Made by a program: the position numbers and the translations under genes. A stretch of 64,000 nt of DNA, taken from assembly GCF_001544015.1 (NCBI RefSeq), contig NZ_AP014924.1:1550001-1614000 (forward strand), in the 5' to 3' direction. Shown here in pieces: positions 687-34,083 of the stretch (position 1 is its first letter; each line of letters begins with the position of its first letter). The stretch is from Limnochorda pilosa (GTDB taxonomy: Bacteria; Bacillota; Limnochordia; Limnochordales; Limnochordaceae). Under the pieces are notes generated by a model. The model saw only the letters and a list, made by a program, of their open reading frames with translations, searched no databases and had not been told where the DNA came from.

Positions 687-936
687 TACGCCTACCGGTG
701 GCGGGACATGGCCCAGCCATCTAGGCATACGTAGCCGGGTGCACTAAGAGGAAACGTACCTTGGCGGGCGAATGCATGTACGGGAGGTGTGAGGGAGTCG
801 TCGGATCACTCGACGGGTGGACCCGCGAATTCGCATGGTCTGTCTCGTTTCGGTTCTTGGAGAGCCTTGAGCGACGGTGCCTCATGGGACCGCTGAGGTG
901 GGTGGATTCACGACTGACTGGAGGCCTGGACACTCC

Positions 937-3768
937 ATGGATCCGCTCTTTCTGTTGTGGGGGAAGACCACTCGAGGACAGCGGGAGACAGCCTACCAGC
1001 CGCAGCAGGAACTCGTCTTTCATCCCCTCCTTCTTCACATGATTGATACCGCAGAGGTTGCTCGAGCGATATGGCGTCGTGCGTTGGGGGCCTCCCTTCG
1101 TGGTCGCTGGGCTCGAGCGTGGGGGGTCGACGTGGACAGCGCCGAAGCCGCAGTGGCCTGTCTGGCAGGCAGTCACGACCTGGGCAAGGCCTCCCCACCG
1201 TTCCAGGTGAAGTGGGCGTCTGGGGCGACGGCGCTCCAAAACGCTGGTTTGCGGTTCCCGCGACCCATCGGGACGGCCCCGCACGGGATTGTCACTGCGA
1301 GCGAGTTGCCCCAGATTCTGAGCGCGATGGGGATCTCTCGTAACGTGGCGGATCACCTCTCTCGGGCCGTGGGTGGTCATCATGGCGCGTTGCCAGCCTA
1401 TCACGACACGGAACTCGTGTCGGAAGTGGTGAGCGAGGTCGGGGACGATGACTGGAAGAGCATGCGGAAGGAGTTGTTCGGGAGACTGGCCATCGTAGAG
1501 GATGCCGATCCGGTCCTCGCGACGCTCGCAACGCTGGGCGATGTTCCGGCATGGACGCTTATGTGTTTGGCTGGGTTGGCCAGCGTTGCCGACTGGATCG
1601 CGTCCGACCTCGATTCGTTCCCAACCGAAGGGCGGCTGGACGGCGCTCTCCAGGGAACTCTTCCGTCCTACCGACTGCACGCGGAGCAGCGGGCGCAGGC
1701 TGCCATGGATCGGCTCCTGTGGACGTCTCCACCCGCCAGGAATGGTCGACCGGCTTTCCAGCAGTTGTTCGCATTCAGCCCCAACAGCTTGCAGCAACAG
1801 ATCGGTGAGCTCGCCGTGGACCTCGGCACGCCTTCGCTCGTCATCATTGAGGCCCCCACGGGACAGGGAAAGAGCGAAGCCGCGCTTTACGCGGCACACC
1901 TGCTCACTAAACAGCAGGGGCGGCACGGGCTCTATTTCGCCTTGCCCACAGAGGCTACCAGTAACCAAATGTTCCGGCGGGTTGTGAGGTACCTCAGTAA
2001 GGCGTACCCCGGCTATCCTGTGAACACCCAGCTGCTTCACGGGCATGCAGCCCTCTCTGCCGAGCTGGAGGCACTGCTTGGGCGCAGCGGGTCGCTACTC
2101 AATCCGCAAGGGGTGGGCGACGAGGGGGCAACGAACGAGGATGCCACGCCTAACGTTCTGGCGTCAGAGTGGTTCCTCCCCAGGAAGCGTGGGTTGCTTG
2201 CACCCTTCGGCATCGGGACGGTGGACCAGGTCCTCTTGGGTGTTCTACGGATTCGTCATTTCTTCGTGCGCCTCTTCGGGCTTGCCGGCAAGACCGTGAT
2301 CATCGACGAGGTCCATGCTTACGACGCCTACATGATCACGCTCCTAAACTCCCTTCTGGAGTGGCTGGCCCATATGGGATCGTCGGTGATAGTGCTGTCG
2401 GCCACGCTTCCCGCGAAACGCCGTGAGGAACTGGTGCAGGCGTTTGCCAGGGGAGCCGGGATCTCGGAGGCCGCAGAACATGACCATGTATCAGCCTCGT
2501 ACCCGAGGATCACATGGGTAACGGAAGGGCGGCCGCCCCGGAGCGCGTCGATCCCGGTTGACGACACTGCATCGCGCCTCATTCGGCTCCGCTGGGTGTC
2601 CGAGAGCGATGATCCGCAGGGCTTGGAGCGCCTTGGCCAGAGCCTAGACTCAAGGTTGTTGGGCGGCGGCTGCGCAGCTGTGATCTGCAACACTGTGGCG
2701 GAAGCGCAACGGGTGTTTAGGGCGCTGACCCCGATCTTCACGTCCCAAGACGCTGGCGATGGTGCGCCTGAACTCGAGCTTTTCCACGCGCAGTTCCCTC
2801 TATGCCAGCGCCAGGAGATCGAGCGGCGCGTCGTCTCTCGCTTTGGCAAAGTCGGGAGCGAAGGCGTGCGCCGGCCATGGCGAGCGGTTCTGGTCGCAAC
2901 CCAGGTGATCGAGCAAAGCCTGGATCTCGACTTTGACGTCATGGTGACGCAGATGGCTCCGGCGGACTTGGTGGTGCAGCGGGCTGGGCGATTGTGGCGC
3001 CATCCCACCACACCTCGGCCCGCGGGACCGAACGATGCGGAGCTGTGGATTTGGCAGGGGCATCCCGATCAGGACGGGGCACCGTCGTTTCCCAAAGGCG
3101 ATCTGCGGGTCTACGACGAGTATGTTCTCCTTTGCTCGTGGCTGGCGTTACGAAATCGTGATCGGTTACGCATCCCGGATGACGTGGAGGGTCTTGTTGA
3201 ATCTGTGTACAGTGAGTCGGATTGTCCGAATGGGCTGACAAGCGAGTTTAGCCTGCGCTTCAGGCGCGCGAGGGAGGTCATGTTGCGTCATCGAGACCTC
3301 TACGAGGTGGAGGCCGAAAGGCGAGTTGTGCGGGTGCCGGCCGGAGCATGGGAGCTCTTCATGGGCGAACGCCAGTTGAGCGAGCCGGAAGACGACCATG
3401 TGGAGGTGAACGCTGCACTGCAGGCGCTCACGCGGATTGGGGTACCCAGCATAACGGCGATCATCCTCCAGGGAACAGAGAATGGGCCGTGGTTCATCCC
3501 AGGGGAGCATAGGGAGCTGGACCGAAACCACCGCCCGGATGTAGATGTGGTGAAAAGGCTCCTGGCGTGGTCCGTGAGGATCTCACATCATGGGGTGGTT
3601 CGCGCAATGAGCGGGCGAGAAGGGCTTCCGCCGTCGTGGAGACAGTCGCCCCTCTTACGAGGCTGTCGAGTCCTGCTCATCGACGAGGGCGGCCTGGGAC
3701 GAGCGGGTGATTGGATCGTGCACATCGACCCGCGCCTGGGTTTGGTCATCGAGGATGCGACGAGTTAG
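937..3768 (+). CDS. cas3: CRISPR-associated nuclease-helicase Cas3 (type I-E)
   Basis: This is the effector recruited by Cascade to unwind and degrade target DNA in the cytoplasm. The 943-residue protein has an N-terminal HD nuclease domain (HDLGK with HD at residues 80-81, and a later GGHHG) and then a superfamily 2 helicase: Walker A APTGQGKS near 305, DEVH at 457-460, SATLP, and motif VI QRAGRLWRH near 680. The ATG at 937 is preferred because the protein then begins MDPLFLLWGK, like other type I-E Cas3 proteins, and GGAGG lies 12 bases upstream; an ATG at 877 would add 20 unconserved residues. It is followed after 67 bp by casA, which has its own promoter. All catalytic motifs appear intact. 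Confidence 0.95.
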   Translation: MDPLFLLWGKTTRGQRETAYQPQQELVFHPLLLHMIDTAEVARAIWRRALGASLRGRWARAWGVDVDSAEAAVACLAGSHDLGKASPPFQVKWASGATALQNAGLRFPRPIGTAPHGIVTASELPQILSAMGISRNVADHLSRAVGGHHGALPAYHDTELVSEVVSEVGDDDWKSMRKELFGRLAIVEDADPVLATLATLGDVPAWTLMCLAGLASVADWIASDLDSFPTEGRLDGALQGTLPSYRLHAEQRAQAAMDRLLWTSPPARNGRPAFQQLFAFSPNSLQQQIGELAVDLGTPSLVIIEAPTGQGKSEAALYAAHLLTKQQGRHGLYFALPTEATSNQMFRRVVRYLSKAYPGYPVNTQLLHGHAALSAELEALLGRSGSLLNPQGVGDEGATNEDATPNVLASEWFLPRKRGLLAPFGIGTVDQVLLGVLRIRHFFVRLFGLAGKTVIIDEVHAYDAYMITLLNSLLEWLAHMGSSVIVLSATLPAKRREELVQAFARGAGISEAAEHDHVSASYPRITWVTEGRPPRSASIPVDDTASRLIRLRWVSESDDPQGLERLGQSLDSRLLGGGCAAVICNTVAEAQRVFRALTPIFTSQDAGDGAPELELFHAQFPLCQRQEIERRVVSRFGKVGSEGVRRPWRAVLVATQVIEQSLDLDFDVMVTQMAPADLVVQRAGRLWRHPTTPRPAGPNDAELWIWQGHPDQDGAPSFPKGDLRVYDEYVLLCSWLALRNRDRLRIPDDVEGLVESVYSESDCPNGLTSEFSLRFRRAREVMLRHRDLYEVEAERRVVRVPAGAWELFMGERQLSEPEDDHVEVNAALQALTRIGVPSITAIILQGTENGPWFIPGEHRELDRNHRPDVDVVKRLLAWSVRISHHGVVRAMSGREGLPPSWRQSPLLRGCRVLLIDEGGLGRAGDWIVHIDPRLGLVIEDATS

Positions 3769-3786
3769 GTAGCTACAGCAATACAC

Positions 3787-3815
3787 TTGACACCAAGGAA
3801 GATTCTTCCTATGCT
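3787..3815 (+). promoter_or_regulatory. Promoter of the Cascade operon with embedded palindrome
   Basis: TTGACA at 3787-3792 and TATGCT at 3810-3815 are 17 bp apart, a near-consensus housekeeping promoter, with a predicted transcript start near 3822 just before the casA ribosome binding site. The spacer holds a perfect 15-bp palindrome, AGGAAGATTCTTCCT (3796-3810), placed where a repressor would block RNA polymerase. Its binding protein is unknown. Confidence 0.7.
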
Positions 3816-3835
3816 GAGGATCAGGAGGTGATCCA

Positions 3836-5410
3836 GTGGCCACGTTCAACCTGATTGATGAACCGTGGATCCCCGCAGTAGATCAACAGGGCGCAGCACG
3901 CGAGGTCGGATTACGAGAGGCGCTCGTAGACGCCCACCTTCTGTCGAGCGTGCGACACGCCTCGCCCTTGGCGACCGTGGCGCTTCATCGCCTGATGCTA
4001 GCCGTGCTCCACCGCATCTTCGGTCCACGTGACCCAGGCGAATGGGTCGAGTTGTGGCGACAGGGTCAGTGGGATGGGGCTGCCCTACAGGACTATCTGG
4101 ATCACTGGAGAGACCGGTTTGATCTCTTCGACCCGGTGCATCCTTTCTATCAGGTCCCACAGATGCCCGATGCGGTGACCCATCCTCCCGAGCATCTCAT
4201 GCTGGAGGCGGCCAGCGGCAACAACGCGACCTTGTTCGACCACCATCACGAGCGTCGCCGCGTGCCTCTGCGCGCGGCGGATGCGGCATGCTACCTCCTG
4301 GCCCAGCAGAGCTACGCCATAGGGTTCGGCAAGAGCTCGCCCTTTTACTTCTCTGATGCTCCTCTCGTGCGAGGCTTCACAGTGCTGATTCACGGCGAGA
4401 CCCTGTTCGAAACACTCATGCTCAACCTGCAGAACTACACTCCTACGAGCAGAGACCTTCCGGCCTGGGAAGACGACGCACCGCGCGAACCTGATCGAGA
4501 CGGCACGTTGCCTCGAGGATACCTGGACTATCTTACGTGGCAGAGTCGGCGTATCCACCTGATCGCAGATGGTGATCCGCCTTACGTGATCGGGTGCCAG
4601 ATCCAGCAGAACCTGAAACTCCGTGGGGACGAGTCGGACCCATTCAAGGTCTACCGGTCAGACAAGGAGCGGGGCATGGTACCGCTGTCGTTGGTGCCGG
4701 GACGGGCCGTCTGGCGGAACGCGGATGCGCTCTTTCACCTGCCCGAAGCGACGCGGATGGGGCCGCAGGACCAGAGCACAACACCTCCCAGAAGCTTCCG
4801 ATGGTTGAGTGTGGTTCGCCAACAGGCCCGGGGAAGCACTGTCGAGTTGCGGTCGGTTTACCGGTTCGGAGTGTACGGTATGGCTACGCAGCCCGGGAAG
4901 GCCGCGTCGGTCGTCCTTTGGGCGCAGGAAGAGCTCCCTCTTCCGCTCGATCTCCTAGATGATGCTCAACAGGTGCATGATCTCGCTGACGGCCTGGGTC
5001 TCGCCGAGAGGGCAGGCTCCATCGAACGAAGGGCGGTCCAGCATCTAGCTTCCCTGCTCCTCACGCCTGAGTCAGACTTGCAGGACGGACGCAGGGCGGA
5101 TCCCAAAGCGATTCACAGCTTGGCAGAGCACATGGATCCGACCCCGGACTACTGGGCTGCGCTGGGAGGGACCTTCGGCAGGTTCATGGTGGGATTGACC
5201 GTTGACCGCGTCCCAGCTCTCCAAGAGTGGGCCGATGCGGTTCGGATCGCGTCGATCGACTCGTTCGGGCGGCTTGTTCGAAGCCTCGGCACCTCCGCAC
5301 GCGAGCTCAAGGCGATCGTCCGTGCAGAGAGAGCATTCCGGTTGTGGCTGAACAGCGAAGTGTCTGAATGGAAGGAGCGAGTGGGATATGAATCGGCCCA
5401 GCCAGCGTGA
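3836..5410 (+). CDS. casA: Cascade large subunit Cas8e (Cse1/CasA)
   Basis: This is the large subunit of the type I-E Cascade complex, which recognises the PAM and recruits Cas3. The 524-residue protein has the family's usual length and the typical N-terminus FNLIDEPWIPA. The GTG start is fixed by an almost perfect Shine-Dalgarno, AGGAGGTGATC, ending 3 bases before it. The gene overlaps casB by 23 bp and opens a tightly packed five-gene operon (casA-B-C-D-E), so equal transcription of the Cascade subunits is expected. No damage is visible. Confidence 0.93.
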   Translation: MATFNLIDEPWIPAVDQQGAAREVGLREALVDAHLLSSVRHASPLATVALHRLMLAVLHRIFGPRDPGEWVELWRQGQWDGAALQDYLDHWRDRFDLFDPVHPFYQVPQMPDAVTHPPEHLMLEAASGNNATLFDHHHERRRVPLRAADAACYLLAQQSYAIGFGKSSPFYFSDAPLVRGFTVLIHGETLFETLMLNLQNYTPTSRDLPAWEDDAPREPDRDGTLPRGYLDYLTWQSRRIHLIADGDPPYVIGCQIQQNLKLRGDESDPFKVYRSDKERGMVPLSLVPGRAVWRNADALFHLPEATRMGPQDQSTTPPRSFRWLSVVRQQARGSTVELRSVYRFGVYGMATQPGKAASVVLWAQEELPLPLDLLDDAQQVHDLADGLGLAERAGSIERRAVQHLASLLLTPESDLQDGRRADPKAIHSLAEHMDPTPDYWAALGGTFGRFMVGLTVDRVPALQEWADAVRIASIDSFGRLVRSLGTSARELKAIVRAERAFRLWLNSEVSEWKERVGYESAQPA

Positions 5411-6005
5411 GATCAACTTCGTCCGGTTCCTCGAGGAACGGCTCGGGGTACGGTCGGACGGAGCACATCGAGAACCAACACCGGAACAACGTTCGACCCG
5501 AGCTACCCTTCGCCGTGCCCTAGGGAAGCCTCCAGGGTCAGTACCAGAGACGTATTCGTACGTGGAACCGTGGCTGGGGCCGCAGGCCGCACCGTGGCAG
5601 GTGGAGAACTTCTACTCCATTGCAGCCCTGATGGCCTGGCACCCCGTCGGCTGGCACGAAGACGATACGCCGCAATCACCGACCAACCTGGGGGCATCGT
5701 TCGTCAGGCTGGCACGGACGCAGCGAGAGTTTCATGGAGAGGTACCTGCAGGACTCGAACGGCGCCTGGTCGCGATGCTCAATGCGTCCCAAACAGACCT
5801 CACCGAGCATCTTCGTCACGCGATCGGGCTTCTCAAGACACACGAGGTCCCTGTGAACTGGGTGCAGTTGCTAGCGGATCTGCGATCCTGGGAATGGTCA
5901 TCCCGCGAAGTTCAACGACGTTGGGCGTATGGCTTCTGGGGCTCGGCACCCCAGGACACCGAACGGCAGGGAGCCGTGGAGGAGGATGAGAGAGATGCTG
6001 GTTGA
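5388..6005 (+). CDS. casB: Cascade small subunit Cse2 (CasB)
   Basis: This is the small subunit of type I-E Cascade, which forms the belly of the complex and stabilises the R-loop. The protein has 205 residues and is mostly helical. The family signature includes a WQVENFYSIAALMAWHPVG-like stretch near residue 70. It starts with ATG inside the end of casA (23-bp overlap) and overlaps casC by 11 bp, so the three are translationally coupled. The assignment rests on sequence character and on position between cas8e and cas7e. Confidence 0.9.
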   Translation: MNRPSQREINFVRFLEERLGVRSDGAHREPTPEQRSTRATLRRALGKPPGSVPETYSYVEPWLGPQAAPWQVENFYSIAALMAWHPVGWHEDDTPQSPTNLGASFVRLARTQREFHGEVPAGLERRLVAMLNASQTDLTEHLRHAIGLLKTHEVPVNWVQLLADLRSWEWSSREVQRRWAYGFWGSAPQDTERQGAVEEDERDAG

Positions 6006-7158
6006 GCTTCACATCGTTCAGAATTTCGCCCCTTCCAATCTCAACCGCGACGATACCAATGCCCCAAAGGATTGCGAGTTCGGTGGCTACCGGCGAGCCC
6101 GCATTTCCAGCCAATCGGTGAAAAGGGCCATCCGAACCTACTTCAAGGAAGCAGGACTCCTGGGTGACGCGGAGCTGTCGGTGCGAACCAAGCGCTTGGT
6201 GGAGGAGCTGTCCCGGCGCCTTGCTGCCCGAGGCCGTGGCCCTGAGGAGGCGCATCAAGTGGCCGTCACCGTCGTGAATGGGATTCCGGCCAGCACGGAT
6301 AGCGACGACAAGACCGAGTACCTCCTGTTCCTGGGTGATCGGGAGGTGGACGCCCTCGCCGGCGTATGTGACCAGCATTGGGACGCGTTGCTACAGGTCG
6401 GTGAGCGGAGCTCGGAGGCGGCCAACCGTCGCGAAGCCAAGAAGGCGGCCAAGGCAGCTGTTGATGCCGTGCGTCAGCACATTGTCGGTGCCCTGAACGG
6501 GGGTAAGGCAGTCGATCTCGCTCTATTCGGCCGGATGATCGCCGACCTCCCGGACCGCAACGTCGACGCTGCCTGCCAGGTGGCGCATTGCATCTCCACC
6601 CATCGCGTCAACACGGAGTTCGACTTCTATACGGCCGTGGATGACCTGCGCCCCGAGGATACACAAGGTGCGGACATGATGGGTACCATTGAGTTCAACT
6701 CAGCGTGCTACTACCGCTACGCCAACGTGGACGTGGACCAGCTCATTAGCAACCTCGACGGTGATGAAGAGCTGGCGAAACGCGGGCTCAGAGCCTTCCT
6801 CGTCGCTGCTGCGCAAGCGGTGCCGACGGGGAAGCAGAACTCCATGGCGGCGCACAACCCTCCTTCGCTGGTATACACCGTGGTCCGGAAGACCAGCCGG
6901 TGGCCCTGGAACCTCGCGAACGCGTTCGTCCAGCCCGTCCGTCCTCGAGTCGACGAAGACCTGATCGCGCGATCGATCTCGGCACTCATCGACTATGCGT
7001 CGCGGTTGAAGGCCGCCTACGGAACCGACACCATTGCCGCAGAGCACGCACTCACGCTGGACGAACTCGGGTGGCCGGATCCCGCGCCGAGACGTGCTGG
7101 AACCTTGGACGATCTGGTCAGCAACACGGTGAACGCGGCCTTCAACAGGGGGACGTGA
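5995..7158 (+). CDS. casC: Cascade backbone subunit Cas7e (Cse4/CasC)
   Basis: Several copies of this protein form the helical backbone that holds the crRNA spacer. The protein of 387 residues begins MLVELHIVQNFAPSNLNRDD, matching the conserved Cas7e N-terminus (IHILQNFPPSNLNRDD in relatives). An ATG at 5986 is also in frame, but it touches the GGAGGAGG site directly. The ATG at 5995 has proper spacing and is chosen. The gene lies between casB and casD with an 11-bp overlap and a 3-bp gap. It contains the SRAR-like RARISSQSVKRA segment typical of Cas7 proteins. Confidence 0.94.
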   Translation: MLVELHIVQNFAPSNLNRDDTNAPKDCEFGGYRRARISSQSVKRAIRTYFKEAGLLGDAELSVRTKRLVEELSRRLAARGRGPEEAHQVAVTVVNGIPASTDSDDKTEYLLFLGDREVDALAGVCDQHWDALLQVGERSSEAANRREAKKAAKAAVDAVRQHIVGALNGGKAVDLALFGRMIADLPDRNVDAACQVAHCISTHRVNTEFDFYTAVDDLRPEDTQGADMMGTIEFNSACYYRYANVDVDQLISNLDGDEELAKRGLRAFLVAAAQAVPTGKQNSMAAHNPPSLVYTVVRKTSRWPWNLANAFVQPVRPRVDEDLIARSISALIDYASRLKAAYGTDTIAAEHALTLDELGWPDPAPRRAGTLDDLVSNTVNAAFNRGT

Positions 7159-7161
7159 TCG

Positions 7162-7917
7162 ATGGCAACCTTGCTCTTCCGCTTGGAGGGTCCCCTCCAG
7201 TCATGGGGTACAGGAAGCCGGTTCTCCACTCGCGAGACGGGCTTGGAACCGTCCAAGTCCGGCGTCATCGGGCTCATCTGCGCGGCGTTGGGCAAACCAC
7301 GGGAGGAACATCCAGAGTACGTCCACCAATGGCCATCGTTGGCTTCGTTGACGGCTCTCCGATTGGGTGTACGGGTTGACCGCGCCGGCCGTCTCCAAAG
7401 AGACTTTCACACAGCCGGCGGGAGTCGTTCCACGGCCAAGGGGCAGGGCGTCATCCGCGCCGACGCGAGTGGGTCCGACACGGTCACCTCGCAACGCTAC
7501 TACTTGGCCGATGCAAGTTTCCTGGTGGGCTTGGAGGGCGACCCGGGACTCTTGAGCCAGGTCGAGTCGGCGCTGCGCGAGCCCGTGTGGCCGATCTTCT
7601 TGGGACGCAAGGCGTGCGTCCCAAGCCGGCCAGCTCATCTCCCCGACGGCTGGCGCGAAGGGCCACTACCGCAGGCACTGGCTACATATCCGTGGCTGGC
7701 ACGAACGCTGGAAGAGGAGAACGCGCACCGGTCGGGCGTGCGCGTCAAGGCTGTCCTTGATGCCGTCCCCGATGAACGAGACAACGCTGATCAGCGCTTC
7801 GACGTGCCCCTGTCCTTTGCGGAGCGACGGTTCGCACCACGCCGTGTGGTTACGATGTGGATGGATTTGTCGGCGGATCAGATAAGGAGGGACCCGCTGT
7901 GTACCTTTCCCGCTTGA
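7162..7917 (+). CDS. casD: Cascade subunit Cas5e (CasD)
   Basis: This subunit caps the 5' handle of the crRNA in Cascade. The 251-residue protein has the RAMP-like N-terminus LLFRLEGPLQSWGTGSRF and the following TRETGLEPSKSGVIGLICAALG that characterises Cas5e. The ATG lies 3 bases after the casC stop, and the 3' end overlaps casE by 19 bp. No defects are visible. Confidence 0.93.
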   Translation: MATLLFRLEGPLQSWGTGSRFSTRETGLEPSKSGVIGLICAALGKPREEHPEYVHQWPSLASLTALRLGVRVDRAGRLQRDFHTAGGSRSTAKGQGVIRADASGSDTVTSQRYYLADASFLVGLEGDPGLLSQVESALREPVWPIFLGRKACVPSRPAHLPDGWREGPLPQALATYPWLARTLEEENAHRSGVRVKAVLDAVPDERDNADQRFDVPLSFAERRFAPRRVVTMWMDLSADQIRRDPLCTFPA

Positions 7918-8636
7918 TCCTGAACCCTCGGAACCGAGCCGTTCGCCGAGATCTCGCTGACGTTCAGGGCCTACACCGCACTCTCATGCGTGGTTTCCCA
8001 GCCATCGAAGCTCACGCGGAGGCGCGTCAACGCTTCGGCATGCTGTATCGGCTGGAGTCACCGCCCCTGGCCCCGCGTCTGCAACTCCTGGTACAGTCAA
8101 CCACTGCGCCGGACTGGTCCGGTCTCGAGCGCGACTACCTAGCGCGAATGGGGGGGAACCCTAGCGTAAAGCAAGTCAGCGAGTTGTACGCTTCCATCCA
8201 AACCGGGCAGGTGCTCCGATTTCGGTTGCGAGCCAATCCGACGAAGAAGATCGACACGAAAAGCGCGGCGGATGGCAGCAAGCGTAACGGGAGACGAGTC
8301 GTTCTGCGCGGAGACGAGGCTCTGCAAGAATGGCTCCACCGCAAAGCTGACGAGGCTGGCTTCAGGCTCCTGACCGTGCGGTTCGATCCGGGTGTCGCCG
8401 ATGTTCGCACGCTAGATGCCGGCAGGCAGGTTGCACGCATCACTGGGCACCATGGCCGGGGTGTGCTGACCATCGACGCTGTGATGTATGAAGGGCGCCT
8501 GCAGGTGACCAACCGAGAACGATTCCTCGAGGCCTTGGTGAGAGGGATCGGGCCTGCGAAGGCCTACGGATGCGGACTGCTTTCGGTGGCTCCGGCTGCC
8601 GTGCATGTCGACGTCGATGTCCGCAGGACTGGATGA
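7899..8636 (+). CDS. casE: CRISPR RNA endonuclease Cas6e (CasE/Cse3)
   Basis: Cas6e cuts the pre-crRNA at the base of each repeat hairpin and stays bound to the 3' hairpin. The 245-residue protein begins with GTG at 7899 (VYLSRLILNPRNRAVRRDLAD), set by AAGGAGG 8 bases upstream; the longer in-frame ATG at 7857 would add 14 residues unlike the family. His26 in LHRTL occupies the position of the catalytic histidine known from the Thermus enzyme. The C-terminal glycine-rich loop GIGPAKAYGCGLLSVAP is intact. Its substrate is expected to be the CCCCAC-GCGC-GTGGGG hairpin of the array, and possibly similar hairpins elsewhere in this window. Confidence 0.94.
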   Translation: MYLSRLILNPRNRAVRRDLADVQGLHRTLMRGFPAIEAHAEARQRFGMLYRLESPPLAPRLQLLVQSTTAPDWSGLERDYLARMGGNPSVKQVSELYASIQTGQVLRFRLRANPTKKIDTKSAADGSKRNGRRVVLRGDEALQEWLHRKADEAGFRLLTVRFDPGVADVRTLDAGRQVARITGHHGRGVLTIDAVMYEGRLQVTNRERFLEALVRGIGPAKAYGCGLLSVAPAAVHVDVDVRRTG

Positions 8637-8733
8637 CAAGCCTTTCGCCAGTAGACAAGCGCATGCGTTAGGTGGGATCCGATCCGGCGTGCTGGAGGCA
8701 GGCTGTTCTTCCCTCAGCTCGCCGGAGCTTTCA

Positions 8734-8823
8734 TTAGTCCCCACGCGTGTGGGGGTGAACCGTGTATGGCTGTGACCGTTCACGTTGGTAGGCTGCGTTC
8801 CCCACGCGTGTGGGGGTGAACCG
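8734..8823 (+). CRISPR. Mini-CRISPR: two variant repeats and one spacer between casE and cas1
   Basis: Two repeats at 8734-8762 and 8795-8823 are exactly 61 bp apart around a 32-bp spacer, the same geometry as the main array. Both carry CCCCACGCGTGTGGGGGTGAACCG, with loop GCGT where the main array has GCGC. The first five bases differ from the main array and from each other. The stem and the GTGAACCG handle are preserved, so Cas6e should still process them. The flanking region 8637-9022 holds no gene. Confidence 0.88.
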
Positions 8824-8955
8824 TCTGCGATGGATCCGCTGCGCTGTTGGAGGGGTCTCTCGCTCAGGTGTGGAGGCGGGAAGCAGTCTGACGAGGTAGG
8901 TGGGGGGCTCTCGAGAGTTATCGGACAGCGCCGACAAATAGAGGGGGCGGGAGGT

Positions 8956-8983
8956 GTCAGGTCGTAGCACGCTCTGACCTGAC
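8956..8983 (+). promoter_or_regulatory. Inverted repeat in the cas1 leader
   Basis: GTCAGGTC (8956-8963) and GACCTGAC (8976-8983) form perfect 8-bp arms around a 12-base loop, about 40 bp before cas1. It could be an operator or an RNA hairpin in the cas1 leader. No T-run follows, so it is not a typical terminator. Confidence 0.4.
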
Positions 8984-9022
8984 CGGTGGTTGCCCAGGTT
9001 CTCTGACGGGGGGTGACATGGA

Positions 9023-9976
9023 ATGCTGAAGGACCTCCACATGCTGCCGAAAGTACGCGACGCGTGGAGCTACCTCTACGTCGAGCACTGCAAGATCGAC
9101 CGGGACGCTCGAGCGATCATGCTGCACGACGCTCGAGGTCGGGTGCCCGTGCCGTGTGCCAGCCTAAGCCTCCTGATGCTGGGACCGGGTACCTCGATAA
9201 CACACGCGGCCATTTCGTCCCTGGCGGACAACGGGTGTCTCGTGGCCTGGTCTGGCGAGCAGGGCGTAAGGTTTTACGCTCAAGGTATGGGGGAGACCAG
9301 GAGTGCGGCGAACCTCCTCAAGCAGGCAGCCTTGTGGGCCGATCCGCAACTGCACCTGAAGGTAGTCATTCGCATGTACGAGTTTCGTTTCGGTGAACCG
9401 ATCGAGCCTCGGATGACGCTCCGACAGATTCGAGGCAAGGAGGGCGTCCGAGTTCGGGAGGCTTACGCCCGCGCAAGTCGGGTGAGTGGCGTACCCTGGG
9501 AGGGCAGATCTTACGATCGGAGTTCTTGGGGCCGTTCCGACCCCATCAACCGGGCGCTATCGGCGGCTAACAGCTGCTTGTACGGGATCTGCCACGCGGC
9601 CATCGTATCTGCAGGCTTCTCGCCAGCTCTGGGATTCGTCCACACGGGAAAGATGTTGTCGTTCGTCTACGACGTGGCCGACCTCTACAAGACCGAGTTC
9701 TCGATTCCCGTGGCGTTCACGGAAACCGCAAAAGGGACGGAGAAGCTGGAAAGCCGGGTACGGCGGACATGTCGAGACGCGTTCACGGAGGGGCAGCTCT
9801 TGGCCAGGATCGTGCCCGATATTCAGTCCATCCTCAACGTCCCGCTACCACCGGGGGCCACGTCGACGGGTGCGTTTGATTCAGATGCAGCTCTTCCCGG
9901 AGGACTTTGGGACCCCGACGCCGGAAGCGTTGTCGGAGGCACGAACTTCGCCGTGGAAGGGAATGAGGCCTCGTGA
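9023..9976 (+). CDS. cas1: CRISPR integrase Cas1 (type I-E)
   Basis: With Cas2, Cas1 integrates new spacers at the leader end of the array. The protein has 317 residues. The metal-binding residues are in place: a glutamate in GVRVREAY, His207 in GFVHTGKMLSFVYD, and Asp217/Asp220 in YDVADLYKTE. These match Glu141, His208, Asp218 and Asp221 of the E. coli enzyme closely in spacing. The ATG at 9023 follows a G-rich site. Cas2 overlaps its end by four bases (GTGA). The mini-array lies directly upstream. Confidence 0.95.
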   Translation: MLKDLHMLPKVRDAWSYLYVEHCKIDRDARAIMLHDARGRVPVPCASLSLLMLGPGTSITHAAISSLADNGCLVAWSGEQGVRFYAQGMGETRSAANLLKQAALWADPQLHLKVVIRMYEFRFGEPIEPRMTLRQIRGKEGVRVREAYARASRVSGVPWEGRSYDRSSWGRSDPINRALSAANSCLYGICHAAIVSAGFSPALGFVHTGKMLSFVYDVADLYKTEFSIPVAFTETAKGTEKLESRVRRTCRDAFTEGQLLARIVPDIQSILNVPLPPGATSTGAFDSDAALPGGLWDPDAGSVVGGTNFAVEGNEAS

Positions 9977-10248
9977 CGGTGCTCATTCTGGAGAGCGTCT
10001 CCCCAGGCCTCCGTGGCGAGATCACCCGCTGGCTGCTCGAGCTCAAGCCAGGAGTATTCGTCGGCACTCTGTCGGCCATGGTTCGGGATCTTCTCTGGGA
10101 GAAGGTCTGCAACGAGGCGGCTGACGGCGGATGCGTCCTGGTGCATCGGGCGGCGAACGAGCAAGGCTTCGCGATTCGTATGGAGGGGCGCACCAGCAAA
10201 GTGGTTGAGGATTTCGAAGGGCTCCTCTTGATGAGAGTGCCAGAGTGA
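9973..10248 (+). CDS. cas2: CRISPR adaptation protein Cas2 (type I-E)
   Basis: Cas2 bridges two Cas1 dimers in the spacer-integration complex. The 91-residue protein has the short form and the N-terminus MTVLILESVSPGLRGEITRW typical of type I-E Cas2, plus the conserved GVFVGTLSAMVRDLLWEKV segment. The GTG start overlaps the cas1 stop, indicating coupled translation. It ends the CRISPR-Cas locus; decayed sequence follows. Confidence 0.94.
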   Translation: MTVLILESVSPGLRGEITRWLLELKPGVFVGTLSAMVRDLLWEKVCNEAADGGCVLVHRAANEQGFAIRMEGRTSKVVEDFEGLLLMRVPE

Positions 10249-10390: not shown

Positions 10391-10650
10391 TTATTGATCG
10401 AGTAGCCGCCGCACATCCTCCACCACATCCCCGGGCCCACCCCGAACGCATAGCTCAGCCGCAGCCGTGCTGCGGGGTCAATGAGGAAGAGCGCGGCCCT
10501 GTGGTTCATCCAGTACCCGTCCGGGGCGGTGGCGTCGGCGACCCGCTCGGCGTAGACGCCGTAGGCCTCGCGCACCTGAGCGAGATCTGCGGGCGTGCCG
10601 GTGAGGCCGACGAAGCTCGGGTCGAAGTAGGCCAGGTACCGGCGGAGCCC
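10391..10650 (-). pseudogene. SCO1/SenC family remnant, truncated and frameshifted
   Basis: On the minus strand the sequence reads RRYLAYFDPSFVGLTG and then YGVYAERV, GYWMNHRAALFLIDPAARL and LSYAFGVGPG, as in the C-terminal half of SCO1 copper-chaperone proteins. After GVGPG the family continuation (DVVEDVRRLLDQ and stop at 10391-10393) is found only in another frame, so there is a frameshift near 10440. The N-terminal half with the CxxxC copper site is absent. The remnant directly abuts the 3' edge of the CRISPR-Cas locus. The remaining sequence between 10249 and 10800 shows nothing else recognisable. Confidence 0.65.
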
Positions 10651-10800: not shown

Positions 10801-12297
10801 CTACCGGTAAACCTTGCTCAGCTCCAGCGCCTGGCCCAGGTGGAGGATGCCCGCACCCAGGCCGTCGGTGGCCAGGGGGTCGCCGTTGGGCAGGCCGTCG
10901 GGTGGCGGGGTGGCGGAGCGAGCCAAGAGGTCGAGGACCACCCGGTCGATGCCCCGCTCCAGGGTGACGCCGGCCGGCCAGTGGGAGATCGCCTGGAGCA
11001 TGAGGGCCGAGGCGCCGGCCACCAGGGGCGTGGAGAAGGAGGTTCCCGCGTCCATGGCCACGTAGCCCGAGAAGGCGGCCTCGGGGTGCGAGGCGGCCAT
11101 GCCGATGAGGTCGTCGGTGTCTCCGGGGCCGGGTACGCCCAGGGCCTCGCCGCCGGGGGCGGCGATGTCGCCCCGGTGCGAGTAGCTTGCCCGTTGGCCC
11201 GCGCGGGTGGCGGCCGCGACGGCGATGGTGTACGGAAGCGACGCGGGCGGCTGGGCGGCGGGGATGGCCGACGCCTTGGCCGCCACGGCCGCGGTGTTCC
11301 CGGCCGCGGCACACGTGACGCCGCCCTGCTCGGCGAAGGCCATGAGCGCTTGCGCGAGGACGCCGTCGGTCCCCGAGGCGGGGCAGGTGCTTCCCAGGCT
11401 GAGGTTCATCACCGCGAACCGGCCCCGGCTACGGGTGGCGAAATCGGCCACAGCCCGCAGGAGGCCGAAGAGGTCGCCCTCGCCTGCATCGTTCAGCACC
11501 CGGTAGAGGTGGATCTCCGCGGCCGGGGCCACGGCGTGAACCAAAGAGGCACAGATGAGGCCGTGATCGGAGAGGTCCCGGAACTCTGTCCAGGAGGGTG
11601 TCACCAGGCCCGGAGTGGGTGCGCCCGGGTGGATGGTAAGCCAGGCGGGAGGGAAGGGGGTCGGGCTCACGCGGCGGGCGGGGGCCGTGTCCAGCACGGC
11701 CACCATCACCTGGGCCCCGTCTTCTTCGGGCGGGAGCAGGCGCCGGCCCGTCTCGTCGGTCAGGCCGATCATGCGAAAGGCGGGCTGGCTCAGGAAGAGG
11801 CGCTCCCCCCCAGCGGGGTCCTCGCCCACGTGCATCACCCGGCGAGCCAGCGTGTCGGTTTCCCACTCCAGGGGATCTCCGACGATGCAGTGGGGTTCCA
11901 CGTGCACGGCGAGGCCGGCGTCGGCCGCCAGCGCCCTCAGGCCGTCGGCCGCCTCTTCCAGGGCGCCGGTGGCCGCTGGGCCCAGGACGGGGCTGCGCTC
12001 GCTGCCCTCCCCTGCGGCCAGGGCCGGAAGGCGCAGGCGCACCACGTCCACGCTGGCTGTACCCGGCGCGGGAGGTACCCCCGCCCAGGGGTCGCCCGAG
12101 ACAGGTGGCCGCCTGCGGAAGGATCGGGACGCAGGAAGGGCCAGCCGGTCCAGGAGATCCAGGCGCGTGCCCGCCGCGGGGGCTCGTTGGAGCAGCTGCT
12201 GCACGTCGGCCTCTAGGCCGAGGATGAGTACCTCGCCGGGCACGTATCGGGGGCGCCGGGGCCGCAGGTTCGCAATGCCGTGGATGCCTCGCATCAT
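10801..12297 (-). CDS. Subtilisin-like serine protease (S8), apparently cytosolic
   Basis: A 498-residue S8 family protease. The catalytic triad is visible as Asp203 (VMVAVLDTAP), His245 (DHGLICAS) and Ser420 (GTSFSTPLVAGAS), with the oxyanion asparagine in AAAGNTAA. There is no signal peptide, no membrane segment and no classical propeptide; residues 1-190 form an unrecognised N-terminal region. It begins 42 bp after the TPR-CHAT gene and is the last gene of the set sigma factor, zinc-finger protein, TPR-CHAT, subtilase. I infer that the CHAT protease and this protease act in one pathway, perhaps one activating the other. The substrate cannot be told from sequence. Confidence 0.9.
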   Translation of the reverse strand: MMRGIHGIANLRPRRPRYVPGEVLILGLEADVQQLLQRAPAAGTRLDLLDRLALPASRSFRRRPPVSGDPWAGVPPAPGTASVDVVRLRLPALAAGEGSERSPVLGPAATGALEEAADGLRALAADAGLAVHVEPHCIVGDPLEWETDTLARRVMHVGEDPAGGERLFLSQPAFRMIGLTDETGRRLLPPEEDGAQVMVAVLDTAPARRVSPTPFPPAWLTIHPGAPTPGLVTPSWTEFRDLSDHGLICASLVHAVAPAAEIHLYRVLNDAGEGDLFGLLRAVADFATRSRGRFAVMNLSLGSTCPASGTDGVLAQALMAFAEQGGVTCAAAGNTAAVAAKASAIPAAQPPASLPYTIAVAAATRAGQRASYSHRGDIAAPGGEALGVPGPGDTDDLIGMAASHPEAAFSGYVAMDAGTSFSTPLVAGASALMLQAISHWPAGVTLERGIDRVVLDLLARSATPPPDGLPNGDPLATDGLGAGILHLGQALELSKVYR

Positions 12298-12339
12298 CGT
12301 CTTCGCCTCCCGTGAGATCGTCCACGCACGTCCGCGGGG

Positions 12340-15180
12340 TCAGAGGGGGCCGGCCGCCCCCACCAGGCCGAAAGCAGCCCAGAAGAAGGGGTGGCTCCAC
12401 CGCGAGCGCAACATCTGGTTCTGGGCCGAGCGCAGCGCGCCCGCCTTGGTCGCGCCGTCCAGGAGCGCGGCGTAGAAGGCGCGCATGAAGGGCACGGTGG
12501 CCGCGTCGCTGATCCGCCAGCGGCTCACCACCAGGGAGCGGCAGCCGCCCATGAGGAAGCCCGCCGCCAGACCTGCCAGCTCGTCCGCCTGGGTCACGTG
12601 CCCCGCCCCCGACTGGCAGCTGCTCAGCACCGCCAGGGAGGCGTGCAGCCGAAGCTGCGCCGCATCGCGGGCGGTGAAGGGGCCGTCGGCCAGGTGGAGG
12701 GCGGAGAAGCGGGGGCTCTCCATGCGAAACTCGCCGTGGGCCGCCACGTGCAACAGCCGGGCGCCAGGGTCTGCGAGGGCACCGGAGACGGCCCTGTCGC
12801 CCGTGAGAGGCCGGGTGCCCAGCAGACCGGCCACCTCCTCCGCCTCGGCATCGACCCCGGGGAGCAGCCCTCCGGGCGAGTGGGCGAGCACCAGAGCGTT
12901 GCGGGCCGGCGGCGACCGGTGGGCCGCATCCCGCTCGGCCTCGGTCACGTGCCGCCACAGGGCGACCGAGGGGGCCAGAACCGTCTCCTGGTGTTCCACC
13001 GCGTGGACTTCACCGTCGAAGAGCGCGGCGAAGGGGACGGTGTGGAGGAAGCCGTGCGGTACCACCAGCACCCGCTCGAGGCTGGCCAGGGTATCGCCGA
13101 AGGGCCGGTAGAGGTGGTCGTGAAGGCGTGCGAGCAGGGCCCGGGCGTTGGCGCCCAGGGCGGCCAGAGAGGCCGAGCCGGGCCGGCTCAGGGCCGGGCC
13201 GAGCTGCTGCACGGCCTGGGCGGTCGCCTCGGCGTTCAAGTAGAAGAGCGACAGGTTTCGGTGCACGGGCTCGGCGGAGCCCAGATCCAGCGCGAGGCGG
13301 AGCCCCCGCCGGTCCGAGAGGAAGCCGAGGATCCGGCTCCGGGTGACGAAGTACTCCAGGACGCCCTCGCCCCGGGCCAGGCGGAGCGGCCCGCCGGGGG
13401 CGTGCGAGATGCCCGCGGCCGGGTGCCGCGCGGCCCGGAGGAGCTCGAGCTCGTCGGAGAGGGCGACGATGCGGCTCTCCAGCTCCCGGCGCCGGTCGGC
13501 CGTGGCCAGGGAGGCGGGCGCGGCGCGCAGGCCCATGTCCTTCTGCTCGGCGTCGGGCAGGGGCAAGGCCGGGGCGCTCAGGCTGCGGTACGCCCGTTGT
13601 GCCTCGGCCAGGTCGCCGAGCAAGCGGGTCTCCCGGGGGTCCTCGGCGGGACCGTCCGTGTCGGGGGCGACCAGGAGGTCCACCAGGGTGCGGGCCTTGA
13701 TGCGGTCCACCAAGCGGTGGGCGTCGCGGGGCCGCCCGCTGCCCCAACGCGCCTCCACCAGGTCCTGATAGGCGCTGGCCCGGCCATCGAGGAAGGTGGC
13801 GCGGAACGCTGGTTGGAGGGTCACCCGCAGGCGCTCGGCCAGACCGATGGCCCGGGTGAGATGCCGGGCGGCGCCGGCTCCATCCCCCTGGAGGAGCGCG
13901 AGGCGACCCCTCTGATGGGCGAGCCGGAAGGTGAGGCCGGGCAAGCTCTCCCGCCGGGCGACGCGCCCGGCTCGAAGCAGCAGAGGTCGCACCTCTTCCT
14001 CGACGTGCACGTCCGGAACGCTCCCGGCGCGGCCCAAGAGCGCCTCAGCCCTGGCCAGGTCCGCCTGGGCCGCCGACGCGGCCATCTTGGTCTGGGCAAA
14101 GACACGCCCGGCGCTGGCCGCAGACGCCTCAGCCTCGGCCCACGCCCCGGCCCGCAAGGCCAGCTCGGCCTGCTCCAGATCCGTGTACGCGGCCCAGGAC
14201 GCGTAGCCGTGCTCTGCAAACCAGCGACCAGCCTCCCGCAAGGCGGCTCGGGCCGCCTCCACCTCGCCGAGCCGGCCAAGCGCGACCCCCCGGTAGGTGT
14301 GCGCACAGGCCACCTCAAAGGGCGCTTGGTCCTGGGAGACCAGCCGGGCGGCGCTTTCCGCCCGCGCCGCGGTCTCCTCCAGGCGGCCCAGCTCCAGGTA
14401 GCAGGCGGAGAGGAAGAGCTCGCAGACCAGCACGTCCCGCGGCATCGAGTGCTCGGCGAAGATCGCGCGGGACCGCCCCAGAGCCACCAGGCTCTCGCCG
14501 TAGCGGCCCAGCTGCAGCAGGGCCGCGCCCTGCACCATGAGGCTGCGGGCGGTGGAGACGTGGAGCCCTTCGGAGGCGAAGAAGGCGCCGGCCTGCCGGG
14601 CGGCCTCCAGGGACTCGGCGAACCGGCCGAGCTGCTGCAGCACCACGGCCCGGCTGTGGTTGCGGCGGGCGTCGGCGGCGGGGTCCGGCGGGGCCAGCCG
14701 GGCGAGCTCCGCAGACCGGTCGTAGCAGGTGAGCGCCTTGGCGGGCCGACCCAGGTAGTAGTGGATGCCGGCCATGTTGCTGAGCAGGCGGGAGGCATTG
14801 GCGTGGCGGCCCAGGGCCTGGAGGACCTCGAGCCCCGCCTGGCCGGCCTCCAGAGCCTCGGCATGGCGGCCCACCTGGCAGAGCGCGGGGATGCGGGCCG
14901 TCTGGGTGGACGCCCACCCCACGCGGTCTCCCGCCCGCTCGAACTCCGACAGGGCCTGGTCCAGCATGGAGAGGGCCTCCTCGGGGCGACCGGCGGCCCG
15001 CAGCGTGTTTCCCCGAGCCCTCAGCGCCCGGGCACGCGCCTCGCCCGGCTCCGCCGCCCGCGCCAGGAAGGCCTCGGAGCGCTCCAGGGCGCGGGACAGG
15101 TCCGTGCGGAGCAGGCGCTTCACCTCTTCCTCCAGGGCGGCCGCTTCGTCGGGACCTATGGAGTCACGGTGTGGGAGCAT
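12340..15180 (-). CDS. TPR-repeat CHAT-domain cysteine protease
   Basis: The protein of 946 residues has an N-terminal and central array of tetratricopeptide repeats (about residues 15-500, many A-x-x-x-G-x-x-x-E-A units such as GRPEEALSMLDQAL) and a C-terminal CHAT domain (about 660-946). CHAT domains are caspase-like proteases related to separase. The catalytic pair appears as His815 in LLHVAAHGEF and Cys855 in VLSSCQSGAG, 40 residues apart as usual for the family. It overlaps the upstream zinc-finger gene by 17 bp and precedes a subtilase. Known TPR-CHAT proteins act in type III-E CRISPR and in gasdermin-type cell-death systems; a related role here is inference. Confidence 0.9.
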   Translation of the reverse strand: MLPHRDSIGPDEAAALEEEVKRLLRTDLSRALERSEAFLARAAEPGEARARALRARGNTLRAAGRPEEALSMLDQALSEFERAGDRVGWASTQTARIPALCQVGRHAEALEAGQAGLEVLQALGRHANASRLLSNMAGIHYYLGRPAKALTCYDRSAELARLAPPDPAADARRNHSRAVVLQQLGRFAESLEAARQAGAFFASEGLHVSTARSLMVQGAALLQLGRYGESLVALGRSRAIFAEHSMPRDVLVCELFLSACYLELGRLEETAARAESAARLVSQDQAPFEVACAHTYRGVALGRLGEVEAARAALREAGRWFAEHGYASWAAYTDLEQAELALRAGAWAEAEASAASAGRVFAQTKMAASAAQADLARAEALLGRAGSVPDVHVEEEVRPLLLRAGRVARRESLPGLTFRLAHQRGRLALLQGDGAGAARHLTRAIGLAERLRVTLQPAFRATFLDGRASAYQDLVEARWGSGRPRDAHRLVDRIKARTLVDLLVAPDTDGPAEDPRETRLLGDLAEAQRAYRSLSAPALPLPDAEQKDMGLRAAPASLATADRRRELESRIVALSDELELLRAARHPAAGISHAPGGPLRLARGEGVLEYFVTRSRILGFLSDRRGLRLALDLGSAEPVHRNLSLFYLNAEATAQAVQQLGPALSRPGSASLAALGANARALLARLHDHLYRPFGDTLASLERVLVVPHGFLHTVPFAALFDGEVHAVEHQETVLAPSVALWRHVTEAERDAAHRSPPARNALVLAHSPGGLLPGVDAEAEEVAGLLGTRPLTGDRAVSGALADPGARLLHVAAHGEFRMESPRFSALHLADGPFTARDAAQLRLHASLAVLSSCQSGAGHVTQADELAGLAAGFLMGGCRSLVVSRWRISDAATVPFMRAFYAALLDGATKAGALRSAQNQMLRSRWSHPFFWAAFGLVGAAGPL

Positions 15181-15964
15181 CGGCGTCGCCCCTCGCGGAG
15201 TCCGTGCTAGGCCCCAACCGGATGCCCTTCACCCAGATGCGGGCTGCAGCGTGCTGCACCGCCAGGTCGTAGGCGCCCGCGGCCAGCCCGGCCAAAACGG
15301 CGTTCCCTGCGGGGTCCGTGCGAGCCGAGGCCACGATGTCCCCCTCGTGCCGCAGCCAGACGGGGAGATCGCCGGGGCTTCCCTCGACGGGCGCCACCAG
15401 CACCAGAAGGTCGAAACGGCCATGTGGGGCGGGCCTGGCCTGCAGGGCCACCATCGCCTCGTCCGAAGCGAAGGTGAGACCCAGGGCCGCGCCGCCTTCG
15501 TGCGACGGGGAGGCGCCACCCGGCGCCATCCGCCGTCCCGGAGCCCCTCGCACGCCCGCCGGAACAGGCATCGCAGGGCCGGAGATGCCTGCGCGCCCCG
15601 CCGTCTGGGGGCCCAGCAGGGAGGCAAGGGCGTCCGTCCACTGGAAGAGCCGTTCTTTGAAGGAGCCGGGCGCTCCGGGGGCCCGAGACGAGCTGAGATC
15701 CGCCGCCGGCGGCTCGGGGGTCTCGTCGGAACGCTCCAGGAACCGTTCCAGCAGCTCGAGCTCCTCCCGGCAGTGGGGGCACGTGGAAAGGTGGCGCGCG
15801 ATGCGGGCCTGCTCCGGCCCTGTCGAGAGTCCCAGGCGGTGCTCGCCCAGGGTCTGCGGGGACGGGCAGTCGGAACGAAGGGATGCGGCGAGGACCGCCT
15901 CGAGAGCCAAGAGCTCTGCGCCGCTCGGTTCAGGACGCCGCGTGCCGCGGCCCTCGTGGTTCAC
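15164..15964 (-). CDS. Zinc-finger anti-sigma-like protein with C-terminal beta domain
   Basis: A 266-residue protein. Residues about 25-75 carry the HxxxCxxC motif (HLSTCPHC) of zinc-finger anti-sigma factors. A proline/alanine-rich linker follows, and the C-terminus (about 165-255) looks like a small beta-sandwich of the carboxypeptidase-regulatory type (TDPAGNAVLAGLAAGAYDLAV). Unlike most ECF anti-sigma factors it has no transmembrane segment, so any signal should be cytosolic. The GTG start follows GGGGAGGTGAGC. It lies 83 bp after the sigma gene and overlaps the CHAT gene, which ties sigma activity to the protease set. The anti-sigma role is inferred from motif and position. Confidence 0.7.
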   Translation of the reverse strand: MNHEGRGTRRPEPSGAELLALEAVLAASLRSDCPSPQTLGEHRLGLSTGPEQARIARHLSTCPHCREELELLERFLERSDETPEPPAADLSSSRAPGAPGSFKERLFQWTDALASLLGPQTAGRAGISGPAMPVPAGVRGAPGRRMAPGGASPSHEGGAALGLTFASDEAMVALQARPAPHGRFDLLVLVAPVEGSPGDLPVWLRHEGDIVASARTDPAGNAVLAGLAAGAYDLAVQHAAARIWVKGIRLGPSTDSARGDADAPTP

Positions 15965-16047
15965 GCGCTCACCTCCCCTATGGGTAACGCTCGGAACCCT
16001 GCGTTTCGCGTGCGCTCCGCCCGTGCGGGCGCGCCCTCGCGCGGCCC

Positions 16048-16659
16048 TCAGCCTCGCCGGGCAAGGAAGTCCTCGAGTTCGGGGCTCCGGGCGAGCCGCT
16101 CCAGCACCCGGCGCTTGAGGGTATACACTTCCTGCACTGACGCGAAGAGGGCCGGGAACCGCGCGGCGATCTCGCGAGGAGGCAGGCCGCGCACGAAGGA
16201 AGCCTCGAGCAGGAGGCGTTCCCTTGCGCCGCGCACCACCCTCGCCACCAGCGACCAGAGGGCATCGCGTTCCTCCGAAGCCAAGGCCTGATCCTCAGGG
16301 CCGGGCGAGGGATCCGGCAGGCTGGGAGTGAGCTCGTCCAGACGCTCGGAGGCCTTCGGCGCCGGCCCTCGGAGCTCGTCCATGATCACGCTGTGCACGC
16401 AGAGCTTGAGGTACTGGAGCAGGGCCGGCCCTTCCTGGAAGCGGGCGGCCTTTGCCGGATCAACGGCCTGCCAGAGCCGCTCCAGCGCCCGGTTGGTGAA
16501 GTAGTCGGCGTCCTCCCCCGAAAGCCGAAAGGAGGGGTGCGCGTGCACCCAGGCCTGGACGCGCGGCGACAGAACGGCGTAGAGCCGCTCCCAGTCGTCG
16601 TCGCGTCGTTGGGCCAGCGCCCTTTGGAGGAGGGCGACGGCCTCGGGCTCCACCGTCAT
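16048..16659 (-). CDS. ECF-like RNA polymerase sigma factor
   Basis: The protein of 203 residues has a sigma region 2 (about 25-95, including DADYFTNRALERLWQAV and YLKLCVHSVIMDELR) and a region 4 helix-turn-helix (about 140-195, SFVRGLPPREIAARFP then TLKRRVLERL). The two are joined by an acidic, proline-rich linker. It is the first gene of the minus-strand set that includes the zinc-finger protein, CHAT protease and subtilase, so it probably drives that operon, perhaps itself too. The ATG lacks a strong ribosome binding site. Sigma factors of this type are often linked to CHAT genes in other bacteria. Confidence 0.85.
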   Translation of the reverse strand: MTVEPEAVALLQRALAQRRDDDWERLYAVLSPRVQAWVHAHPSFRLSGEDADYFTNRALERLWQAVDPAKAARFQEGPALLQYLKLCVHSVIMDELRGPAPKASERLDELTPSLPDPSPGPEDQALASEERDALWSLVARVVRGARERLLLEASFVRGLPPREIAARFPALFASVQEVYTLKRRVLERLARSPELEDFLARRG

Positions 16660-33844: not shown

Positions 33845-33930
33845 TTGCCAGATCGTCGCTCCCGCACGTATTCTCCCCTGGACACCCTAGATGTAGGTTA
33901 CTAGATTGTTAACGGGTCCATATCTTGTGG
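33845..33930 (+). promoter_or_regulatory. Possible promoter and NrdR-like site upstream of nrdJ
   Basis: TTGCCA (33845-33850) and TATTCT (33869-33874) are 18 bp apart. Downstream, 33915-33930 (containing ATATCTTGTG) agrees with the NrdR-box consensus ACACWATATWTWGTGT at about 10 of 16 positions, mainly in one half. The promoter is plausible; the NrdR site is weak. Confidence 0.3.
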
Positions 33931-34083
33931 ATCCGGGGCCGGCCCGGTGTCGTCGCGACAAGGCGGACTCCGGGGCTGGACGCGAACGTGCGTTTGCTGT
34001 ATGCTGAAGGGGAGACGGTTGCGGGGCCGGCACCGGCTGCTACCGGGCGTGGCGCGGTCTCGCCGCACTGGGAGGAAGACGGC

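Follow-up and report, generated by a model that had tools for sequence, protein, structure and literature searches.

Organization of the locus

The window, that is, the whole stretch of 64,000 nucleotides of Limnochorda pilosa DNA that was analysed, carries four consecutive genes which, in their order on the minus strand, encode a sigma factor, a small zinc-finger protein, a protein with TPR and CHAT domains and a subtilase, and which are adjoined by a cas operon convergent with them and not counted as part of the set. The features are as follows:

16048..16659, minus strand: divergent sigma-70 family (ECF-like) sigma factor of the 'type A' branch, 203 aa (TIGR02937, orthologues, profile)
15164..15964, minus strand: zinc-finger protein, predicted anti-sigma partner, 266 aa (profile, AlphaFold2 model, weak Pfam matches, fusions)
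12340..15180, minus strand: TPR-CHAT protease, 946 aa, with TPR-like helical repeats at 10-585 and the CHAT domain at 681-941, His815/Cys855 (Pfam, AlphaFold2, profile, dyad)
10801..12297, minus strand: S8 subtilase, 498 aa, leaderless, with an N-terminal pro-like segment, Asp203/His245/Ser420 (Pfam S8, triad)
877..10248, plus strand: type I-E cas operon (cas3, cse1, cse2, cas7, cas5, cas6e, cas1, cas2), the assignment of cas7, cas5 and cas6e being based on position only

The genes of the zinc-finger and CHAT proteins overlap by 17 nt, and 83 nt separate the sigma from the zinc-finger gene and 42 nt the CHAT from the subtilase gene; coordinates and order agree with the initial annotation, which had described four genes on the same strand with overlaps or short gaps. 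Its statement that both proteases retain their catalytic residues also holds: in the alignments, all five fall in columns that are conserved across every complete homologue, namely His815/Cys855 of the CHAT protein and Asp203/His245/Ser420 of the subtilase. Likewise, neither a hydrophobic leader in the window subtilase nor a membrane helix in the zinc-finger protein was found, as had been claimed.

The sigma factor and its partner

The sigma factors of the set are of two types that share the same companions: type A, which is divergent and occurs in the window and in part of the Chloroflexota, and type B, which is a classical short ECF factor. The window sigma factor matches TIGR02937 (6.8e-11) at 0.8 bits under the cut-off, the same model matches four of the seven type A members, and type A orthologues with 25-35% identity occupy the same position in Chloroflexota sets. 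The best PDB match of the type A profile is a weak one (R. sphaeroides SigE, 0.016); because the profile barely reaches the solved sigma factors, the assignment of type A rests on TIGR02937 and on gene position.

The partner is built of a helical anti-sigma domain with the HxxxCxxC motif (about residues 15-80; HLSTCPHC in the window protein), a disordered linker (about 86-157) and a beta-sandwich resembling carboxypeptidase regulatory domains (about 160-250), and AlphaFold2 returned a confident four-helix N-terminus, some 70 disordered residues and a confident beta-sandwich. Pfam matches are weak, both for CarboxypepD_reg and for zf-HC2 (0.0012, under the Pfam cut-off). The first part of a profile of 17 partners (profile A2) matches RsiW (4.7e-6), RslA (2e-4; chain 3hug_B, which we take to be this protein), DdvA (4e-4) and ChrR (0.008), and its last part matches carboxypeptidase-regulatory-like or Cna-like beta-sandwiches. 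As a fold search with the partner model gave generic beta-sandwich matches only, none with E < 0.001, the sequence profile is the basis for the anti-sigma assignment, and it sustains the sigma/anti-sigma pair proposed in the initial annotation. Furthermore, sigma factor and partner form one open reading frame, with HxxxCxxC kept, in three Chloroflexota genomes (L114, L115 and L120), and such a fusion is also found upstream of CHAT in L141, L142 and L145, an arrangement that speaks for joint action of the two. The prediction that the small protein is a class I anti-sigma factor joined to a beta-sandwich is, therefore, well supported. Many type B partners no longer have the zinc ligands, which makes it improbable that the system is generally triggered by the sensing of zinc.

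The two proteases

The TPR-CHAT protein matches Pfam CHAT (5.5e-55) besides TPRs, and its AlphaFold2 model (pLDDT 87, pTM 0.84) has separase, Csx29 and the transmembrane anti-sigma factor DdvA (8rot) as best fold matches. In profile comparisons the CHAT family reaches Csx29 at 5e-19 and DdvA at 4e-10, and by profile the set includes, as had been claimed, a Csx29-like TPR-CHAT protease, which combines the TPR-CHAT architecture with a His/Cys dyad, as expected for a Craspase-like protease, and lies outside the NCBIfam Csx29 family proper (22.5 bits against a cut-off of 300). The invariance of the dyad over a divergent clade argues for catalysis. The CHAT members checked showed neither a clear signal peptide nor a clear membrane segment at the N-terminus.

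The window subtilase matches Peptidase_S8 (3e-22). Among the set subtilases with a readable N-terminus, 24 carry a signal peptide or an N-terminal membrane segment; the leaderless ones, namely that of the window and those of L026, L132, L137, L138 and L139, all belong to the type A branch as defined by their CHAT genes, and all six retain the catalytic triad and have a stretch of sequence N-terminal to the catalytic domain. The description 'cytosolic subtilase' is thus accurate for the window and five relatives but not for the family, most members of which have a leader. In one branch (L144, 5048-8731; L145, 4234-7953) the subtilase is replaced by a clostripain (C11) with NHL (beta-propeller) repeats and a signal peptide, which suggests that the set needs a second protease but not necessarily an S8 enzyme. 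As judged from the predicted leaders, the constant feature is a second protease that is usually exported.

Recurrence of the set across bacteria

A scan of many genomes with the CHAT alignment, in which loci were picked by CHAT alone, gave at least 80 loci in many phyla. The other genes of the set were not used for selecting the 80 listed CHAT loci; among these matches, a sigma gene lies directly upstream (of the small protein or of CHAT) in 21 and a subtilase directly downstream in 18. Sets were found in at least six phyla: Chloroflexota, Acidobacteriota, Actinomycetota (Rubrobacter, Modestobacter), Planctomycetota, Deinococcota (a rearranged set in Meiothermus) and Pseudomonadota (a single truncated locus, limited to CHAT and S8). 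Further sets came from a survey of 201 Chloroflexota genomes; S8 is absent from several sets.

The co-occurrence search that the initial annotation had proposed, therefore, finds the four families conserved together, in the order sigma-partner-CHAT-S8, in many phyla. Since it is conserved across phyla, the set is more than a chance cluster, and the comparison of gene neighbourhoods supports the view that the four genes form one conserved functional set. The module is a real, conserved and little-studied sigma/anti-sigma/protease set.

In 60 relatives from the class no gene for the CHAT protein was found, the weak matches there being to TPRs only. In a quick CHAT tree, computed with FastTree only and with long branches, the CHAT proteins with a set neighbourhood group apart from the others (45 rows, support 97) and the window CHAT is placed among the Chloroflexota sets (support 99); this placement would fit horizontal acquisition of the set by the window's lineage. 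One Anaerolineae genome (G070) encodes at least six full-length paralogous CHAT proteins of this family, and all four paralogues examined there (L024, L146, L147 and L148) have a partner and a subtilase as neighbours.

A proposed mechanism and its alternatives

The set probably converts a stress signal into gene expression. In the mechanism that we propose, to which we would give an even chance, the sigma factor would be held back by a soluble anti-sigma factor, from which the cytosolic TPR-CHAT protein would bring about its release, with the second protease as the output. The long TPR superhelix may sense an intracellular ligand or a damaged protein and thereby switch CHAT on; CHAT would then either cleave the partner, probably within the disordered linker, or strip it from the sigma factor; and the sigma factor so freed would transcribe target genes. 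These would probably include the set operon itself, raising the level of the second protease (the subtilase); the upstream regions of the sigma genes showed no shared promoter motif of the ECF type, so that this element of autoregulation is unsupported. The output protease would be exported in most members, and the leaderless ones, including that of the window, would act in the cytosol. By analogy with type III-E Craspase and DdvA, the nearest solved counterparts of this logic, gating of the sigma factor by a protease is a good hypothesis.

The presence of an anti-sigma domain and a CHAT domain in the single chain of DdvA supports sigma gating by TPR-CHAT proteins, but it also counts against the proposal, in that a TPR-CHAT protein can be a component of the anti-sigma factor rather than its protease. 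The TPR-CHAT protein of the set could, accordingly, have a structural role, as a sensor or co-inhibitor which retains the sigma/anti-sigma complex in the manner of DdvA, with its protease activity acting elsewhere or not being used for release. The closeness of the TPR-CHAT model to DdvA in the fold search is in favour of such an arrangement, which we consider distinctly less probable than proteolytic release in the light of the invariant His/Cys dyad.

With regard to the cytosolic two-protease cascade of the initial annotation, the export of the second protease in most members argues against it as a general mechanism, and it could operate only in the leaderless branch, where CHAT would activate the subtilase by removal of the pro-segment. 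The six leaderless subtilases, with their triads and N-terminal segments, are suited to this; however, the same operon commonly includes an exported subtilase or a clostripain, so that cleavage of S8 by CHAT is not the general logic of the set, and even for the leaderless branch a cascade seems rather unlikely. Control by direct degradation of the sigma factor, by which the proteases would keep the system off and the small protein would serve as a substrate adaptor only, was published from the same gene context (PMC8999054) but is improbable here, given that the small protein has an anti-sigma domain and, in some genomes, forms one chain with the sigma factor, and that export of the subtilase in most members would keep it from meeting the sigma factor.

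The neighbouring cas operon

The module as proposed above would be self-contained; a phage- or CRISPR-linked defence module, in which the sigma factor would control the neighbouring cas genes or the subtilase would be an abortive-infection effector, is suggested by the position of the set about 550 bp from the neighbouring operon, which is the only cas1 locus of the genome, and by the CRISPR linkage of Csx29 systems. In addition, DdvS/DdvA reportedly controls a CRISPR-Cas operon in Myxococcus xanthus.

The distribution of the set is, however, at odds with such a link. Cas1 was found near the set in none of 22 other genomes, lying on the same contig in one of them at a distance of 50 kb, and it is absent from 12 of the 23 genomes with the set that were searched, many of these assemblies being incomplete. 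The G+C content is about 62% in the cas operon as against 74% in the set and 71-74% in the chromosome to its right, with a sharp step from about 63% to 73-75% at 10400-10600 of the window (about 10.5 kb), which marks the cas operon as compositionally foreign, and no motif common to the upstream regions of the sigma and cas genes was found. The neighbouring MFS gene, too, is absent from 13 relatives; set and cas genes therefore lie in an accessory region, which suffices to explain their proximity. Thus, the link to CRISPR that had been suggested is not borne out, and the position of the set beside CRISPR in this genome looks like coincidence.

A broader connection with phage defence, for which the distance to defence genes had been put forward as a check, fares no better: the flanks encode, by their Pfam tally, largely metabolic and regulatory functions and mostly housekeeping genes, and matches to defence models among the 93 flanking open reading frames are few, mostly to one methyltransferase. 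PADLOC gave no strong defence match, the weak and generic ones being to 'subtilase' (2e-9), IetS (5e-5) and BovA (2.5e-4), and nothing was found when viral contigs were scanned with single proteins or when the subtilase was searched against plasmids. Taken with the distribution of Cas1, the composition step and the accessory region, this makes a defence role very unlikely.

Some further features of the window may be recorded here. Type I-E repeats with 61-nt spacing lie to the left of cas3 (36-552), and two copies of a slightly different repeat form an array between cas6e and cas1 (8734-8823). No terminator was found between the set and cas2, where a frame on the minus strand (10440-10650) resembles by eye the C-terminus of SCO1/SenC and may be a gene remnant, with no Pfam match. 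At 33925-39144 a ribonucleotide reductase is interrupted by intein and LAGLIDADG matches.

Relation to known systems

As a gene neighbourhood the module is already known through the ECF54 group, in which a carboxypeptidase, a subtilase and a CHAT protein are conserved around the sigma gene, and for which it has been proposed that the sigma factor itself is controlled by proteolysis and that no anti-sigma factor takes part (PMC8999054). The same three companion domains surround the ECF sigma factor in the sets described here, where the sigma gene adjoins CHAT, subtilase and carboxypeptidase-like genes, and type B members (e.g. L016, L017, L044) fit that group, whereas the window sigma factor belongs to the separate and divergent type A branch, unlike classical ECF members. 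Moreover, ECF54 was assumed to lack an anti-sigma factor, whereas the 'carboxypeptidase' protein of the set carries an anti-sigma domain. This domain, the fusions with the sigma factor, the distribution of leaders and the exchange of subtilase for clostripain are new here. Should the partner prove to be the anti-sigma factor so far missing from ECF54-like sets, a group of sigma factors described without one would gain a testable mechanism.

The DdvS/DdvA pair of Myxococcus xanthus likewise consists of an ECF sigma factor and its anti-sigma factor. The latter unites TPR-CHAT with an anti-sigma domain related to that of the set, the partner and CHAT profiles matching the DdvA chain (8rot_B) at 3-129 and 833-976, respectively. 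DdvA is, however, a single transmembrane chain (as stated in the PDB title), whereas the set has separate genes, with no membrane helix in the partner or in the CHAT N-terminus. DdvS acts once the anti-sigma factor DdvA is inactivated, by a trigger that is not known there (PMC4374960).

In type III-E systems, the TPR-CHAT protease Csx29 cleaves Csx30, the inhibitor of the ECF sigma factor CASP-sigma (PMC10028731). Like Craspase, the set encodes together a TPR-CHAT protease, an inhibitor and an ECF-like sigma factor, and the CHAT domains are related by profile; it differs in that no relative of Cas7-11 or Csx30 was seen, the neighbouring operon being of type I-E, and in the presence of the subtilase. 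We tentatively suggest, as a possibility short of an even chance, that the set is a widespread CRISPR-independent counterpart of Craspase, in which an all-soluble sigma/anti-sigma pair is gated by a TPR-CHAT protein sensing an intracellular signal and is coupled to a second protease, exported or cytosolic, and that the CRISPR-linked versions (type III-E, DdvA) may derive from such sets. If so, protease-gated transcription by TPR-CHAT proteins would be a regulatory circuit general to bacteria, with the CRISPR-guided Craspase as one specialized case.
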